Source: Candidatus Margulisiibacteriota bacterium (lineage in GTDB: Bacteria; Margulisbacteria; Termititenacia; Termititenacales; Termititenacaceae). Taken from it: a stretch of 35,266 bases of DNA. Under the pieces are notes generated by a model. It had not been told where the DNA came from, searched no databases, and saw only the letters and a program-made list of their open reading frames with translations. Position numbers and translations under genes: made by a program. This document shows, in pieces, positions 4,290 to 32,174 of the stretch (its first letter is position 1; each line of letters begins with the position of its first letter). The stretch lies in NCBI GenBank assembly GCA_031279305.1, contig JAITIS010000095.1, positions 1 through 35,266 on the forward strand. The letters are read 5' to 3'.

Positions 4290-5456
4290 ATGAACATTTG
4301 TATTTTCAGCCAAAAAAATATACCCGCGGTCAGCGAGTTGCTGGCTATGAACTACAGTCTAAACAAAGCATTCCAAAACGCCGCGGACCTAAGCGCCTAT
4401 CTTGAGCAGGGCGAACAAATAGACATCCTGCTGTGCGATCTGACGCTGGCCGGGGAACAGCCGGAAATTATTTTAAGCAAAATAAACTACATCATCGCGC
4501 TGGCCGAAGACCAGTCGCCAGAAACTCTGCTGGAGGCGCTGTCGCTGGGCGCCAGAGAGGTGCTGGCTGCGCCGCGGCTAAGCGCCACCGAACTGGAAGC
4601 GGCGCTAAAAAAAGCCATTGGCTACATCAATGCTTACAATCAGCGCAGCGGCGTAAAATCCGCGAATATTATTACTTTTATCAGCAGCAAAGGCGGCATC
4701 GGCAAATCGGTCATCAGCACCAACCTCGCGGTAATCCTGCAGGAAATTTTTAAGAAAAAGGTCCTGCTGATCGACACGGTGCAGCGTTTTGGCAGCGCGG
4801 AAATTATTCTTAATTTCTGCTCGCGCAAATCGCTGTTAGCCGTGCCGGCTGAAGCGGACAATTTGGAAATATACTGGCAAGAGATCGAAAAAAATATTTT
4901 GAGGCACAGCGGCGGCTTGGATCTTTTGCTGGCCGGCGATGACAACCACGAACCCCTGGCCTCCGCTAAAATCCGCTCCGTCTTAAAAGCCGTCAGGGAC
5001 AAATATGATTATCTGATCATCGACACGGACAATTATTTTGTCGAGCCGGTGCTGTCTCTGCTGGAGCTGTCTGATCAAATCATTTATTTAAGCAAAATGG
5101 ACATCGCTTCGCTGAAAAATCTGCGTCTGGGACTGGACAGCCTGAAATCTTTTTATTTTTCTCTGGACAAAGTCAAGCTGGTCATCAATTGTTTTGAAAA
5201 AACCAGCGAACTCAGCATTGCGGAGCTGGAAAAATTTTTGAACTGGAAAATTTTCACCGTCCTGCCGGAAGACCGCAACACCATCATTAGCTCCATCAAC
5301 AAAGGCGCTCCTTTTGCCGCGGAGAAAAAAGACAGCGAGTTATTTCTAGCGCTGCGGCATTTCGCGGAGCTTTTGCAGGGCATCGCCGCGGACGACCAGA
5401 CGGACAACAAAAAAACCAGAACTTGGTTTAACTCGCTGTTAAAACTTTTAGCTTAA
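4290..5456 (+). CDS. cpaE: CpaE/TadZ-like pilus localisation ATPase (atypical receiver domain + MinD/ParA-like)
   Basis: Deviant Walker A SSKGGIGKSVISTNLAVIL; position between secretin and CpaF; N-terminal receiver-like domain. Confidence 0.85.
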   Translation: MNICIFSQKNIPAVSELLAMNYSLNKAFQNAADLSAYLEQGEQIDILLCDLTLAGEQPEIILSKINYIIALAEDQSPETLLEALSLGAREVLAAPRLSATELEAALKKAIGYINAYNQRSGVKSANIITFISSKGGIGKSVISTNLAVILQEIFKKKVLLIDTVQRFGSAEIILNFCSRKSLLAVPAEADNLEIYWQEIEKNILRHSGGLDLLLAGDDNHEPLASAKIRSVLKAVRDKYDYLIIDTDNYFVEPVLSLLELSDQIIYLSKMDIASLKNLRLGLDSLKSFYFSLDKVKLVINCFEKTSELSIAELEKFLNWKIFTVLPEDRNTIISSINKGAPFAAEKKDSELFLALRHFAELLQGIAADDQTDNKKTRTWFNSLLKLLA

Positions 5457-5467
5457 AAAAGGAGCGG

Positions 5468-6919
5468 GTGGTTATGTCGCTGCTGGATAGGATAAACACC
5501 GAACCGCCGAGCGCCCGCCAAGACAAAAACACTCCGGAGGCCAATCCTGCGCTCAACGAGGCGGCCCGGCAGATCATCGCCAATCTGGAGTCCCGGATGG
5601 ACAAAGAACCGCGGCTAAAAACTAAAGAAGACCGCCGGGCATTCTTAAAAAAAGTGATCGGATTGCACCGCGAGCTGATCAAGAATTCAGATCTCAATCT
5701 GACGGAGCTGTCCGCCGATCTGCAGAACAACACGGAACAGAAAAAACTCTATTCCGCCATCGAGCAGGAAGTGTTGGAAATTTTTGATACAAACAAGCAG
5801 TATTACTCCCGCCAAGAAAAAGCCGAAATTATCGAGGCGGTCGTCAGCGAAACTTTAGGACTGGGGCCTTTAGATGAGCTTATCAACGACAGCAGCGTTT
5901 CAGAAATTATGGTCAACGGCTGCAATAAAGTATTTGTCGAACGCAAAGGCATTTTGGAGGAAACGCCCGTCATTTTCTTTGATGACGACCATCTCAAAAG
6001 AATAATCGTCCGCATCGTCAGCAAAATAGGCCGCCATATCGACGAAGGCATGCCGATGGTTGACGCCCGCTTAAAAGACGGCTCCCGCGTCAACGCCATT
6101 ATTCCGCCGATCGCCCTGACCGGCCCCACTTTGACTATCCGCAAATTCTCCGAAAAAGGCTACACCTGCAAAGACCTGATCAAGTTTGGCTCGCTGACTC
6201 CAGCAATGGAAACTTTTTTACGGCTCTGCGTGGAAGCCAAATTAAATATTATTGTTTCCGGCGGCACCGGCTCCGGCAAGACCACTCTGTTAAACGCCCT
6301 GTCTAATTTTATCCCCAATGACGACCGGATCGTCACGATCGAGGACTCGGCGGAGCTGCGCCTGCAGCAAAACCACGTCATCATCTGCGAAACCAGACCG
6401 CCGAATATCGAGGGCACAGGCGAGATTACCATCCGCGATCTAGTGCGCAATTCTCTGCGGATGCGCCCGGACCGCATAGTCGTCGGTGAATGCCGCGGCG
6501 GCGAAACGCTGGATATGCTGCAGGCGATGAACACCGGCCACGACGGCTCAATGACCACCGCCCACGCCAACTCGCCCAAAGATCTGATCACCCGTCTGGA
6601 AACAATGGTGCTAATGGCCGGCGTCGACCTGCCTATCAAGGCTATCCGCCAGCAGATCGCCTCCGCTTTTGATCTGGTTATTCAGCAAAGCCGCCTGCAG
6701 GACGGCTCGCGCAAGATCGTCAAAATATCCGAGGTTTGCGGCATAGAAGAAGATTTGATCTTGATGAATGATATTTTTGTTTTTGAGCAAACAGGCGTTC
6801 ATTCGCAAACCCGCAAAGTCGAAGGCGCGTTTAAGCCGACGGGCATCGTCCCGGATTTTCTGCACAAACTGGAAGCGAAAGGCTTGAAAGTGCCTATAGG
6901 TATTTTTGGAGGACTATAA
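5468..6919 (+). CDS. cpaF: TadA/CpaF-type secretion ATPase
   Basis: GPLDELINDSSVSEIMVNG, SGGTGSGKTTLLNALSNFIP, RIVVGECRGGETLDMLQAMNTGHDGSMTTAHANSP. Start could be GTG 5468 or ATG 5474. Confidence 0.95.
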   Translation: MVMSLLDRINTEPPSARQDKNTPEANPALNEAARQIIANLESRMDKEPRLKTKEDRRAFLKKVIGLHRELIKNSDLNLTELSADLQNNTEQKKLYSAIEQEVLEIFDTNKQYYSRQEKAEIIEAVVSETLGLGPLDELINDSSVSEIMVNGCNKVFVERKGILEETPVIFFDDDHLKRIIVRIVSKIGRHIDEGMPMVDARLKDGSRVNAIIPPIALTGPTLTIRKFSEKGYTCKDLIKFGSLTPAMETFLRLCVEAKLNIIVSGGTGSGKTTLLNALSNFIPNDDRIVTIEDSAELRLQQNHVIICETRPPNIEGTGEITIRDLVRNSLRMRPDRIVVGECRGGETLDMLQAMNTGHDGSMTTAHANSPKDLITRLETMVLMAGVDLPIKAIRQQIASAFDLVIQQSRLQDGSRKIVKISEVCGIEEDLILMNDIFVFEQTGVHSQTRKVEGAFKPTGIVPDFLHKLEAKGLKVPIGIFGGL

Positions 6920-26892: not shown

Positions 26893-26967
26893 GGCCTCAT
26901 CGTCTAATGGTCAGGACACGAGATTCTCAATCTCGCAATAGGGGTTCGATTCCCCTTGAGGCTGCCA
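26893..26967 (+). tRNA. tRNA-Glu (anticodon CTC), CCA encoded
   Basis: GGCCTCA acceptor with TGAGGCT (G1:U72 wobble), anticodon arm CGAGA-TTCTCAA-TCTCG, T arm GGGGTTCGATTCCCC, discriminator G + CCA. Confidence 0.93.
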
Positions 26968-26970
26968 CCG

Positions 26971-26991
26971 CGTGAAACAAATTGTTTCACG
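26971..26991. repeat. 21-nt perfect inverted repeat just downstream of tRNA-Glu
   Basis: CGTGAAACAA-A-TTGTTTCACG; no U tract follows. Confidence 0.6.
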
Positions 26992-27002
26992 GATAATCGC
27001 GG

Positions 27003-27578
27003 TTAATACCAGCTCTCCTCCAGCACATTTGTGATCTTCTGTTTCATTATGGCGATCAGCTGCCGGCCGGCGTTTATAATCTCCCGCTCTTTTGCGGCGG
27101 CGGCGGCGAGTTTCCGCTGTATCTCCAGCGCGGGGAGAGGAATTTTTATCCGAGCAATTCTGGCCAGGGCTAATTTAGGAATGCCGGCGCCTTTGGCAAA
27201 ACTTTTGATTTGCTCCTGACTGTCCGTATTCTGCAGAATATATGCCAAAAAATTTTTATCTAGCGCGGCCTTATTTTTAATAACCAATTTGGCGGCGTTT
27301 TCCGTCAAAGATTTTCCATCTAATTCCCGCGGCACGGTGCCCGTCACGCCAATTGTTCCCGCTATAGACATATAGACATCTTCTTGCGAAATAGTATATT
27401 TTCGGATCCGCGCAAAAACATCCCCGGAAATATATTTCACTTTCGACAAATTGATTGTTCCATTCATAAAATCAACAACCCTAATATACGGGTATTCCGT
27501 GACCACGCCTGAAAATGTTTTGCCTCGGGGAATTCTTTTGCCGCCCTTAATTTCGCAAATCTCGCCTAATTCCACCAA
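27003..27578 (-). CDS. hsdS: HsdS half-subunit (second TRD + conserved helix), frameshifted relative to the upstream hsdM-hsdS ORF
   Basis: LVELGEICEIKGGKRIPRGKTF...FAKGAGIPKLALARIARIKIPLPALEIQRKLAAAAAKEREII. Frame stays open upstream through the AG repeat; no strong initiation site (TTG 27578). Confidence 0.85.
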   Translation of the reverse strand: MVELGEICEIKGGKRIPRGKTFSGVVTEYPYIRVVDFMNGTINLSKVKYISGDVFARIRKYTISQEDVYMSIAGTIGVTGTVPRELDGKSLTENAAKLVIKNKAALDKNFLAYILQNTDSQEQIKSFAKGAGIPKLALARIARIKIPLPALEIQRKLAAAAAKEREIINAGRQLIAIMKQKITNVLEESWY

Positions 27579-27589
27579 GCGCGCATTGT

Positions 27590-29497
27590 TTAATTTTCTA
27601 AGGCTGTAACCAAACCTCTCTCTCTCTCTCTCTCTAAATTTTTGATAATTTCTCTGGCGTGGTTGATGGCCTGTTGTTTGGCTTCAATCTGGCTCACAAT
27701 TTCTCCCTGCGCCTCCAGCGGCGGCCGCGGGATTTTGATTTTTAGCAGATCTTTGCCGAGCAAATGAATGATGTTGGTGCCTCTGGCGTAAGCGGCCAGT
27801 TCTTTTTTTAAGGGGCCGCTTAAAAGATAGGCGAGATAAACCGGATTGATTTTAGCTTTGTCAATTCGGAGAATATTTATATCTCCGCCAATAATCACCC
27901 CGTCCTCCAGCAAAGCGCTGGCGGTGGCGATGCCCAGCGGCCCCGCGGTGGTCGTGCCGGGCACCAGCACATCTCCGCTGACGGAGAGTATCTTGCCGTC
28001 CCGGTCCGTGCGGCTCACCGCCTCCTTGATCACTTGCCCGTACAGCGTGTAAAGCTGGCCGTAATGAACGCATTTATTTCGGCCTTTTTCCCGCAAATCG
28101 CTTTTGGTCAGACCCTGTCCTCGCAAAAGCGCCGCCACTTCTTTTAACTCCACCAACGGCCATTTCTGATTTTTGCGGATTTTCGCCATTTTGTACCGCC
28201 CGCCGGATAAATTATAGTCGCCGGCGGCGGCGATTTTTTCCTGCGGCGCCCAGATGGCCAGCTCGCTTTTTTTCTCCAGCCCCTGCTGCCACGCCGCCAG
28301 CACGGCCAGCGCCTCAGGCAGATCATTTTTTTCTATTTTCCGGCGCTGCGCGCCGAGGTCAAAACCATCATTTTTAATTTCTATAAATAAAATTTTATCC
28401 GTTTTTTTAATAAACTGTTTGTCAAAAAACAGAATGCTGGTCTTCACGCCCGAATACGGCTGAAAAACTCCGGGCGGCAGCGAAACAACAGCCCATAGTC
28501 CGTCCGCGCAGAGTTTTTGGCGGATCTGGGTGTAGGCGCGCTCTGTCTTGAAAACAACGCCCTCCGGCACAATAATACCCGCGCGGCCTCTTAGGCTCAG
28601 GTGTTCCAATATGTAATCCACAAAAAGCACTTCGGAGCGCCGGGCTTGCACGGAAAATCTTTGATGCGGTTTTATGCCGCCTTTGGGCGTCATAAACGGC
28701 GGATTGGCGAGGATCACGGCAAAAGTTTCGTCCCATCTTTGCTCGCTGGTCAGGGTGTCGTACTCGTGGATTTTCGGCTCCGGGAAGCCGTGCAAATACA
28801 TATTGACGAGCGCCAGCCGCACCATATCCGGCGAAATATCATAGCCCGCGAGATTATTCATCAATTTTAATTTTTCGTCCGGGGTAAGCGGCTTGGCTTC
28901 ATTTTGCCTCAAAATATGCTTGTACGCGGAAATCAAAAACCCGGCGGTCCCGCAGGCGGGATCCAGAATTGTCTCATTCTTTTGCGGAGCCACCGCCGCC
29001 ACCATAAAATCAATAATATGCCGGGGCGTGCGGAACTGCCCCGCGTCACCTTGACTGCCGAGGACGGAAAGCAGATATTCAAAAGCATCGCCAAGATCTT
29101 CGCTGTGCTCATAATGAAAGTCGTTAATCTCTTTGAGGAAAAGCGTCAGCGTGCGCGGATCATTGTACGGCAGAAACACGCCTTTGAAAATATCCCGGAA
29201 CAACCGCGGGATGCGCGGATTTTGGGCTATATCCGCGATCGCCCGCACGTAGAGACTCAGACGCTCCGGCCCGGAAAGCCTCCCGTCCAGCAGTCTAGCC
29301 CAAGCGTATTGTTTTCGCTTAGCGGCAAAAAACTGCGCCTTTAAGCCCACTTCCTCATTTTCCCGGTCCATATCATCCATAAATTTATAGATGAGCGCCG
29401 TCGTGATCTGCTCCACCTGAGCTTTGGGATCAGGGACTTTGCCGACGAGAACATCCCGCACCGAGTCAATTTTTCGTTTGGTAAGCTGATCCAGCAT
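27590..29497 (-). CDS. hsdM: Type I DNA methyltransferase HsdM fused to an N-terminal HsdS half (TRD1)
   Basis: HsdM: GDAFEYLLSVLGSQGDAGQFRTPRHIIDFMV, DPACGTAGFLISAYKHI, VILANPPF. C-terminal TRD: WPLVELKEVAALLRGQGLTK...YARGTNIIHLLGKDLLKIKIPRPPLEAQGEIVSQIE, then NLERERERGLVTALEN*. Confidence 0.92.
   Translation of the reverse strand: MLDQLTKRKIDSVRDVLVGKVPDPKAQVEQITTALIYKFMDDMDRENEEVGLKAQFFAAKRKQYAWARLLDGRLSGPERLSLYVRAIADIAQNPRIPRLFRDIFKGVFLPYNDPRTLTLFLKEINDFHYEHSEDLGDAFEYLLSVLGSQGDAGQFRTPRHIIDFMVAAVAPQKNETILDPACGTAGFLISAYKHILRQNEAKPLTPDEKLKLMNNLAGYDISPDMVRLALVNMYLHGFPEPKIHEYDTLTSEQRWDETFAVILANPPFMTPKGGIKPHQRFSVQARRSEVLFVDYILEHLSLRGRAGIIVPEGVVFKTERAYTQIRQKLCADGLWAVVSLPPGVFQPYSGVKTSILFFDKQFIKKTDKILFIEIKNDGFDLGAQRRKIEKNDLPEALAVLAAWQQGLEKKSELAIWAPQEKIAAAGDYNLSGGRYKMAKIRKNQKWPLVELKEVAALLRGQGLTKSDLREKGRNKCVHYGQLYTLYGQVIKEAVSRTDRDGKILSVSGDVLVPGTTTAGPLGIATASALLEDGVIIGGDINILRIDKAKINPVYLAYLLSGPLKKELAAYARGTNIIHLLGKDLLKIKIPRPPLEAQGEIVSQIEAKQQAINHAREIIKNLERERERGLVTALEN
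27616..27635. repeat. (CT)10 dinucleotide microsatellite ((AG)10 on the coding strand) at the hsdMS/hsdS junction
   Basis: Directly read: CTCTCTCTCTCTCTCTCTCT; encodes the ERERER stretch at the C-terminus of the HsdM-S ORF. Confidence 0.97.
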
Positions 29498-29549
29498 AAT
29501 TAAAACATCGCCGTGTTCTTTTTATTTTGCCAAAATGGCAGCCGCTATT

Positions 29550-32057
29550 TTACTCCATATATTGATTAACAGAAACATAATCTTTTACATACTCCGGGAT
29601 AATTTCCCGCCAGCTATCCAGAGCTTTATACTCCGCCATTGTAAAACCGGCAAAGCTGCGGGGAAACCGCCGGTTGTTTATTTCCCGGCGGAAATATTCA
29701 TTGGCCGCGTAGGCTTTCAAATAATTTTTAATATGCGGCACATATTTACTGTCCGGTTTATAGATCGAAATAAACTTTTCACATTCTTCCTCTAGTTTTG
29801 CGTCTTTGGACTTGAACGCGTCAATTAAGCCGAACGCGCGCTCCAAAAATTCGCGCCAAGTGATCCGGCGGTCAAGATTTTCACTGCGGCGTATTTTTTC
29901 CAGATTGAGAAACAACCGCGGCTTATCCTCATATCTGTCCCGCGCAATCCGCACGGCTCTGTCCCATTGCTCGTTTTCCACGGCGGATTTTAGCTCCGCA
30001 TCCTCCCGCAGCTTTGCGCGGGCTTTTTCAAATAATTTGCGGTCAACTTTCATGCCTTCGAGTCCGACCGGCGTCTCCACAAAAGTTTTTATGCTGTCCG
30101 GATCAAATACTTCAATTTCATCAGTCCCTGCGCCGCCAAGCCCGCCGCCGGCTCCTTGCCGCCCGATCGGCAGCGGCAAAATCTCGTCATAATCAAATTT
30201 TTCCTCAAAATACTCGCAATTGGCGAAAAAATCAAAAAACTTAAAATGTTCTTTTTCCGCTCTATGCTTGGCGCCGTCCGCGTCGATGTATTCAAAAGTA
30301 TGCCGGCGCGTACCGCGCCCTTTGATCTGAATAAAATCTGTCGGCGAAAAAACAGGGCGCATCAGCGCCAGATTCAAAATATCCTGACAGTCATAGCCAG
30401 TGGTCATCATTCCGACGGTCACGCACACTCTTGTCCGGCTGGATTTATAGTTTTCCAGAAATCTGGTGCAGCCGTGGAGATTATTATTGGCAAAATTGAG
30501 CGTGAAACGCTGCGCGTCTGGAATGCTGGAGGTGACCTGCACGGCAAAATCCGAATTATATTTGCCGGGCCAGAGCCGGTCTGCTTCTTGATTGAGCGCC
30601 TGCGTTATTTTTGAGGCGTGCCGCTGGCTCACGCAAAACACGATGCTTTTGCCGATCTCTCCGCTCAGCGGATCGGCGAGGGCGTTTTTCATAAATACTT
30701 GGCAAAAGACACGATTGGTTTTTTCGGAAAAGAATCTCTTTTCAAAATCCCGCTGAAAAAATGTCTCCTCATTTTCTTCGCCGTCGACGTTTGCCGTCGT
30801 CACGGCATAGCCTTTTTGCGAAAGAAGATCCGCGGTAATATCGGTCCGCGCGTCAGAAACAATCGGATTGATCAGATATCCTTCGCGCACCCCGTCCAGC
30901 AAACTAAAACGGAAAGTCGGCTCGCTGTTTTTACAGCCAAAAGTCACGTAAGTATCCAAAAGCTGCCGGCGTTCCCAAGCGCGCGGGTCATTCTGGGAAA
31001 TCCGCCGCGGGTCAATATTTTTCAGATAATCTTTGGGAGTCGCGGTCAAACCTAATTTATAGCCAATAAAATACTCAAAAACCGCCCGCGAGTTTCCGCC
31101 AATCGCGCGGTGGGACTCGTCGGCAATGAGCAAATCGAAATCCGTCGGCGCAAAAAGTTTTTTGTATTTATCCTGCGCTGTAAAACTCTGCACCGTCGAC
31201 ACAACAATCTCCGCTTTTTTCCAGTCGTCGCGGTTTTGTTTGTAGATCACCGCGGCAAAATCATTGCTCAAATAGCAATCAAGGTTTTTGCGAGCCTGCG
31301 TCTCCAGCTCCAGACGGTCTACCAAAAACAAAATCCTTTTGGCATTGCCAGTCCGCAGAAATAATTTAATAACCGCCGCGGAAATAAGCGTCTTGCCTGT
31401 GCCTGTGGCCATTTCAAAAAGGAAACGGTCATTTCCCGCCGCGGCGGCTTCTTGCAAAGCGCGAACCGCCCTAAGCTGGTAAGGGCGCAAAATCCGCAGA
31501 TTTTCCGCCCAGAGATACCGCGCCCTTGTCGCTTTGTCTCTGTAGCGAGGATCATCCTGAAAATGCGGCTTTTGGGTCAAAGCGATATAGTCCGCTTCAA
31601 CTTTTTCCGCGGCCAGACGCTTGTTGTCGGGCTTAAATTCCCGGCGGTGTTTTAAGGACTCCTGTGAGGGAAATTTGGCAATGACTTCCGGGTTGCCCCG
31701 CGCCAAATCCCAAAAGTAGTGCAGATTGCCATTGGACAGAAGCACAAAGCGAGCCTTTGCAGCGCTGGCGTATTTCCTCGCCTGTTCTTTGCCGTCGAGA
31801 GGATCCTTATCCTCTCTCTTGGCCTCCAAAACCACCAGCGGAAATCCCTGCTCATCCAGCAGGAGAAAATCGACAAACCCGTTTTTTGCCGACTCAAAAT
31901 CTTTGCCGAGAGCGGCAATGTCCTTTTGCGCGAGTTTCACGGCTTGTTCCAGCGCGATATTGGCCTGCCCCGCGCTATCGTCAAAAAACCGCCAGCCCGC
32001 TTCTTCAAGAAGTTTGTTTATTTTTATCCGCGCGCCGGCTTCTTTAGAATCCACCAT
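29550..32057 (-). CDS. hsdR: Type I restriction endonuclease subunit HsdR (EcoEI-like)
   Basis: Nuclease motif region FVDFLLLDEQGFPLVVLEAKRED; FLFEMATGTGKTLISAAVIKLF; DLLIADESHRAIGG; LGLTATPKDYL; FIQIKGRGTRRHTFEYID. Confidence 0.94.
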   Translation of the reverse strand: MVDSKEAGARIKINKLLEEAGWRFFDDSAGQANIALEQAVKLAQKDIAALGKDFESAKNGFVDFLLLDEQGFPLVVLEAKREDKDPLDGKEQARKYASAAKARFVLLSNGNLHYFWDLARGNPEVIAKFPSQESLKHRREFKPDNKRLAAEKVEADYIALTQKPHFQDDPRYRDKATRARYLWAENLRILRPYQLRAVRALQEAAAAGNDRFLFEMATGTGKTLISAAVIKLFLRTGNAKRILFLVDRLELETQARKNLDCYLSNDFAAVIYKQNRDDWKKAEIVVSTVQSFTAQDKYKKLFAPTDFDLLIADESHRAIGGNSRAVFEYFIGYKLGLTATPKDYLKNIDPRRISQNDPRAWERRQLLDTYVTFGCKNSEPTFRFSLLDGVREGYLINPIVSDARTDITADLLSQKGYAVTTANVDGEENEETFFQRDFEKRFFSEKTNRVFCQVFMKNALADPLSGEIGKSIVFCVSQRHASKITQALNQEADRLWPGKYNSDFAVQVTSSIPDAQRFTLNFANNNLHGCTRFLENYKSSRTRVCVTVGMMTTGYDCQDILNLALMRPVFSPTDFIQIKGRGTRRHTFEYIDADGAKHRAEKEHFKFFDFFANCEYFEEKFDYDEILPLPIGRQGAGGGLGGAGTDEIEVFDPDSIKTFVETPVGLEGMKVDRKLFEKARAKLREDAELKSAVENEQWDRAVRIARDRYEDKPRLFLNLEKIRRSENLDRRITWREFLERAFGLIDAFKSKDAKLEEECEKFISIYKPDSKYVPHIKNYLKAYAANEYFRREINNRRFPRSFAGFTMAEYKALDSWREIIPEYVKDYVSVNQYME

Positions 32058-32089
32058 AATTTTGTTTTAGCAGGACAATCAATACAGAG

Positions 32090-32174
32090 CGGAGAGGGCG
32101 AGATTCGAACTCGCGGTGGCTTGCGCCACACAACATTTCCAATGTTGCACCATCGGCCACTCGGACACCTCTCC
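32090..32174 (-). tRNA. tRNA-Ser (anticodon GGA), CCA not encoded
   Basis: Minus strand GGAGAGGTGTCCGAGTGGCCGATGGTGCAACATTGGAAATGTTGTGTGGCGCAAGCCACCGCGAGTTCGAATCTCGCCCTCTCCG: acceptor pairs, CAACA-TTGGAAA-TGTTG anticodon arm, long variable arm, T arm. Confidence 0.95.

Follow-up and report, generated by a model that had tools for sequence, protein, structure and literature searches.

A probable phase-variable specificity switch at an (AG)10 tract in a type I HsdM-HsdS fusion gene of a Candidatus Margulisiibacteriota bacterium

In the NgoAV type I restriction-modification (RM) system of Neisseria gonorrhoeae, hsdS1 and hsdS2 are joined or split by a poly-G tract, and the full-length and truncated forms of HsdS differ in specificity (PMC7394358, PMC9577141). 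The first-pass annotation of the DNA described here had invoked this system as a precedent for slippage-driven switching of type I RM genes. For AG[n] tracts in mycoplasma hsdS, PMC9465063 cites Atack et al. 2020, and the HsdS-associated dinucleotide tracts of Candidatus Mycoplasma girerdii vary in length in reads (PMC5476646). Engineered fusions of HsdM to one half of HsdS show activity, form dimers and recognise a palindrome (PMC6158711).

The locus compared here with these systems lies in the window, i.e., the whole stretch of DNA that was analysed (35,266 nucleotides of contig JAITIS010000095.1). Reading of the sequence gives an (AG)10 tract at 27616-27635 on the minus strand, between two HsdS halves, exactly as annotated at first pass.

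Anatomy of the locus and frames set by the tract

The tract is located at the end of the helix that links the two target recognition domains (TRDs), and a homologous tract is found in 15 other loci. The hsdM-TRD1 ORF (27590-29497, minus strand; 635 aa at n=10, ending in LVTALEN) contains an N6_Mtase domain at residues 132-439 (E 2e-54), followed by a Methylase_S domain at 444-621. Its HsdM part possesses the N6-adenine methyltransferase (MTase) catalytic motifs DPACGTAGF and NPPF, and the closest PDB matches to HsdM are type I M proteins. The TRD2 frame (27003-27683, minus strand) is open back through the tract, as had been claimed, without any stop or frameshift in TRD2; its 191-aa part contains a second Methylase_S domain, and n=9 would join this frame to hsdM-TRD1. 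The domain positions thus place the repeat between TRD1 and TRD2. An intact hsdR (29550-32057, minus strand; 835 aa, ResIII and HSDR_N domains) is localized just upstream of hsdM-TRD1 in the same island, and hsdR adjoins the fusion gene in most relatives too. On its gene content, i.e., MTase, two TRDs and HsdR all present, the locus is a predicted type I RM system in HsdM-S fusion form.

The frames were rebuilt in silico for each tract length. A tract of n=9 joins them into one 830-aa HsdM-TRD1-TRD2 protein containing NLERERERFGYSLRKL; n=10, as sequenced, leads to 635 aa with the C-terminal end ERERERGLVTALEN; n=11 leads to 633 aa with the C-terminal end EREREREVWLQP (EVWLQP). The fusion at n=9 and the stops at TALEN and EVWLQP predicted at first pass are all reproduced. 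Computed from n=6 to n=14, the outcome cycles every three AG units, with n=6, 9 and 12 in the fused class, and the two encoded TRDs are joined only at n = 0 mod 3. In other words, a simple repeat within the coding frame of the window gene sets which protein is made. The downstream part of the cassette (27587-27615, minus strand, up to CTTAGAAAATTAA) contains stops in both non-fused frames, and it is on this part that the codon conservation (14 loci) and recoding results given below bear.

Three translational states had been proposed at first pass. The three-frame cycle stands as computed; two biological states are nevertheless more likely than three, because the n=10 and n=11 proteins are nearly alike (M-TRD1 with a different short tail) and the truncated relatives all have n = 1 mod 3. 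The n=11 form was not retained as a third biological state: its protein is unlike that of n=10 in the last residues only, and n = 2 mod 3 occurs in no relative. A separate internal translation of TRD2 is not favoured either, its first listed start being a TTG at 27578 with no evident ribosome-binding site.

The tract is the sole (AG)≥7 tract of the genome (1,503,008 bases scanned, in a fragmented draft assembly), and none of 100 dinucleotide-shuffled versions of the window contains it, even when 3 mismatches are tolerated.

The hsd island is bordered by tRNA-Glu (CTC; 26893-26967, plus strand) and tRNA-Ser (GGA; 32089-32174, minus strand) and occupies the whole interval between them (window 26893-32174). 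In a sister species the same tRNA interval (L286 1389-10580) is filled by a different 9-kb gene set, with C5 methyltransferase-like, endonuclease III-like, ATPase-like, Dam-like and RadC-like ORFs, the names being given by visual inspection of the sequence. A tRNA-Glu(CTC) and a tRNA-Ser(CGA) are just 0.7 kb apart in a different genus of this family (L288 1867-2737). Since the content of the interval differs in this way, the RM system occupies a variable spot, and it has probably been acquired. No close relative of the gene was found in its own genus (2 genomes) or phylum (75 genomes), hence horizontal acquisition is probable.

Relatives with the tract and conservation of its codons

One scan of 85,462 species genomes with the M-TRD1 ORF led to 80 relatives. 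In most of them the junction is KPxIxIDPxW-like and has no repeat; in 14 of the 80, an AG-tract-encoded NLERER stands at the homologous place. One further AG-junction locus (L257) was found when 381 genomes of the phylum of L020 were searched by pattern. Together, 15 loci besides the window have the AG tract at the homologous residue, i.e., 16 with the window. Carriers are mainly Patescibacteria (Magasanik-, Moranii-, Parcu-, Yanofsky-, Wolfe- and SR1), and the remaining records are labelled Bacillota, Gamma- and Alphaproteobacteria and Omnitrophota. Binning errors may account for some of these labels: the TRD2 of L025, a contig of 3 kb, matches that of L022 at 100% identity. Viral contigs contained no AG-junction member by junction pattern scan and protein scan, and plasmid and phage records contained distant HsdM relatives only, all below 60% identity.

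The number of units is not fixed at 10: it ranges from 4 to 7 in the 15 other loci, which is the repeat-length comparison that the first-pass annotation had called for. The effective n is 4 (one locus), 5 (one locus, interrupted), 6 (nine loci), 7 (four loci) and 10 (the window). The two TRDs are in one frame in ten of the 16 loci; the other six, among them the window, are truncated, all with n = 1 mod 3. These differences of length and frame are between different species and not within one population. In all six truncated loci the TRD2 frame is open through to the normal HsdS C-terminus. The spacing from NL to FG in the window at n=9 equals that of the relatives at n=6, therefore the n=10 of the window is one unit off the length-matched in-frame state. 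Most of the carrier genomes that were checked have no, or almost no, other (AG)6-or-longer tract. It must be added that the near-identical pairs L029/L030 (HsdM and TRD1) and L022/L025 (TRD2) have equal n and thus give no direct evidence of slippage.

Codon identity was compared at conserved residues of 14 distinct loci. The upstream baseline (55 six-fold columns) has a mean pairwise codon identity of 0.33 and a maximum of 0.74, with no invariant column. On the contrary, the GAG of the tract is invariant in 14/14 loci, and so are the codons that follow the tract wherever the residue is kept: CTT (13/13), AGA (13/13) and TTA (12/12). Read out of frame, these invariant codons give TAG in one of the wrong frames and either TAA or TAG in the second, and both wrong frames end 3-11 codons past the tract in all loci. 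In the divergent L086, the stops are at the same positions and are supplied by other codons. When each locus was recoded synonymously with its own codon usage, both nearby stops survived in 1-38% of trials per locus, percentages that are not simply multipliable because the loci share ancestry; for the same reason, and because related loci recombine, the codon statistics as a whole are not independent.

The fixation is restricted to particular codons. Directly upstream, in the same conserved helix, codons vary normally; E-R pairs elsewhere in these genes are not normally GAG-AGA; and CGN, GGN and AAR codons vary within the cassette itself. This last point argues that what keeps the fixed codons in place is the stops they form. 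As judged from these codons, the tract and its out-of-frame stops are conserved beyond the needs of the protein.

The junction is also a border between modules, because TRD1 and TRD2 have been swapped independently there (pairwise comparison). L029 and L030 are 96% identical in HsdM and 99% in TRD1, with TRD2 at 31%; L022 and L025 have identical TRD2 and TRD1 at 32%; L257 has a TRD2 like that of L011 (93%) and a TRD1 like that of L015 (86%). On the HsdM tree (82 tips) the AG-tract label is scattered, with 7 changes, at least 5 of them forced by well-supported branches. All 16 carriers nevertheless fall within one 36-row part of the tree, alongside 5 of the 6 natural one-TRD members. The role of module border could itself help to keep the junction DNA alike.

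The short form, the proposed switch and other readings

The protein made at n = 1 mod 3 has 38 residues after the last IPLPPLExQ (TRD1) motif in 14/14 loci where the motif is placeable. The natural one-TRD members L068 and L088 likewise have 38 residues past the motif; the in-frame protein's own C-terminus has 35-38 where placeable, and the other wrong frame leads to 32-36. The short form keeps the whole MTase, the whole TRD1 and a 38-residue terminal helix (domains and AF2 model), through which it may dimerise. For the in-frame relative L021, the inter-TRD helix (608-639) of the AF2 model (mean pLDDT 78.5) ends with the ERER encoded by the tract. In the AF2 model of the window short form, ERER falls within one continuous C-terminal helix, the only part where the model is confident and the only part used, because the MTase part is poor (mean pLDDT 54.5).

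It is probable that slippage at the tract toggles the enzyme between an M-TRD1-TRD2 form with an asymmetric target and a self-dimerising M-TRD1 form with a palindromic target, as in NgoAV. With n = 0 mod 3 (n=9 here), HsdM-TRD1-TRD2 would be made, with an asymmetric bipartite target expected. With n=10, HsdM-TRD1 would be made with a complete C-terminal helix; by analogy with the engineered M-half-S fusions and NgoAV, it would dimerise and methylate a palindrome of two TRD1 half-sites, and the dimer together with HsdR would restrict the same palindromic target. Such slippage would occur within a population, and it may affect defence or gene expression. The slippage-driven specificity switch put forward at first pass is, on comparative grounds, well supported: homologous tract, varied n, both frames represented, TRD2 open and stops conserved.

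The reading that survives best beside it, albeit an unlikely one, is a phase-variable on/off switch, n=9 giving an active methyltransferase and n=10 and 11 an inactive truncated protein, as for type III mod. The conserved double stops also fit such a clean off state, and in the type III MmyCI mod an AG tract is followed by conserved stops in both other frames, the gene being off when out of frame (PMC3498834). However, a whole MTase and one whole TRD precede the tract here, and the short form is as long as the natural one-TRD members of the same part of the HsdM tree. Moreover, its engineered equivalents are active (PMC6158711), and the six truncated loci all use one wrong frame only (a two-sided probability of about 0.03 with both frames taken as equally likely and relatedness ignored). 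The specificity switch is favoured because of the 38-residue match to one-TRD members, the continuous C-terminal helix and the activity of engineered half-S fusions; we infer by analogy that the short form is active and dimerising.

It is rather improbable that n=10 is a one-unit error of assembly or sequencing, or a fixed frameshift in a decaying gene, with a stable n=9 fusion as the normal gene. The genome is a single draft assembly and, taken alone, may contain a one-unit assembly error; ten copies among relatives are in frame, and the TRD2 of the window could be decaying. Against this, five other loci from independent assemblies are truncated at the same tract, all with intact TRD2, the window TRD2 itself has no lesion, and the tract and stop codons are kept beyond what the protein needs.

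In some bacteria, ribosomes can be prompted to shift frame by tandem AGA codons. If such a shift were programmed at the AGA-rich tract, a single tract length would suffice for both proteins and the DNA would not need to slip; stops just past the tract would end the unshifted chains. This is nevertheless very improbable, since 10 of the 16 loci are already in frame and need no shift, and the tract varies in length among relatives, which slippage explains directly. Least credible of all is that the junction is mainly a TRD-swapping recombination site, with the AG tract as a by-product of E-R coding and local homogenisation: the independent exchange of TRD1 and TRD2 and the scattered tract label would agree with it, and the normal codon variation of the helix directly upstream, the freedom of CGN, GGN and AAR beside fixed stop-making codons, and the absence elsewhere of a preference for GAG and AGA speak against it.

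Other AG tracts and comparison with known systems

Other AG tracts were noticed in the genomes of relatives. In the genome of L021, a second, unrelated type I system (L250, G082:C36) contains an (AG)9 tract at 5671-5688 on the plus strand, in frame between the two TRDs of a separate hsdS (4905-6341), and both other frames stop at once. As read from its frames, L250 is the same switch design arrived at in a different hsdS. Among 287 genomes of the phylum of L020, 4 of the 13 (AG)8-or-longer tracts are in reverse transcriptase genes (RVT_1; L292, L293, L299 and L300). Three of these four have a phrog_1423 match; the tract starts at position 1502 of the coding strand. In L292, L293 and L300 it stands just ahead of a G(I/L)PIGNL(T/S)SQ motif, L293 (n=8) being in frame and L292 (n=9) and L300 (n=8) out of frame. 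The four genes are possibly phase-variable reverse transcriptases. Long AG tracts of 12-18 units were also found in genomes of this phylum at L290, L295, L296, L297 and L298, that of L296 in a Na/Ca exchanger-like gene and others in frames with no assignment. Finally, an (AG)10 in the genome of L011 (L251 4962-4981, minus strand) is near short ORFs only.

Most descriptions of phase variation concern, to our knowledge, cultured pathogens and mycoplasmas. The cassette found here, a candidate specificity switch, is present in uncultured lineages with reduced genomes and moves together with TRD swapping. It is quite possible that (i) a mobile cassette, i.e., the AG tract plus stops in both other frames at the TRD-swap border, spreads among HsdM backbones in Patescibacteria and other phyla; (ii) thanks to this cassette, every newly combined TRD pair can act in turn as a two-TRD enzyme and as a one-TRD homodimer; (iii) the short frame is selected as a proper half-S C-terminus (dual coding); (iv) the similar AG tracts in a second, unrelated hsdS and in reverse transcriptase genes point to AG slippage as a general contingency mechanism in these small genomes. 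If the switch at the window locus works as proposed, one defence locus would have two target specificities, and more via TRD exchange, and a two-state methylome, testable in existing long-read metagenomes, would be expected.

PDB 7EEW (638 aa chain) matches the family profile over HsdM and TRD1. It is probably the M-TRD fusion reported by Seo et al. 2022. With this natural fusion, as with the engineered type IMS EcoKI and the CC398-1 MSfus and M-half-S proteins, the window shares an HsdM fused to one or two TRDs and a separate HsdR (PMC3510504, PMC6158711); unlike the window gene as proposed, none of them switches between one- and two-TRD forms. With NgoAV it shares a simple repeat between TRD1 and TRD2 which chooses between full-length and one-TRD specificity; however, NgoAV has a poly-G tract, separate hsdM and hsdS and a switch known from experiments, whereas the window has AG, a fused gene and a switch proposed from sequence. 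The Mollicutes hsdS genes have in common with it a dinucleotide tract in type I specificity genes (with read-level variation in Ca. M. girerdii), but they are separate hsdS genes and not an HsdM-S fusion. The MmyCI type III mod of Mycoplasma mycoides subsp. capri has an AG tract in a methyltransferase gene and, as here, conserved stops in both other frames (PMC3498834), but it is type III with an on/off outcome.

The first-pass view that a dinucleotide tract exactly at the inter-TRD helix of an HsdM-HsdS fusion is unusual needs a correction as regards hsdS as such, AG[n] tracts being known there in mycoplasmas. In the open-access papers searched, among which Atack et al. 2020 itself is not included, no description was found of an HsdM-S fusion whose AG switch is kept, together with its stops, in many lineages. 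What was already known is thus the AG tract in mycoplasma hsdS and switching by truncation in NgoAV; what is new is the tract as a conserved feature of one HsdM-HsdS fusion group.
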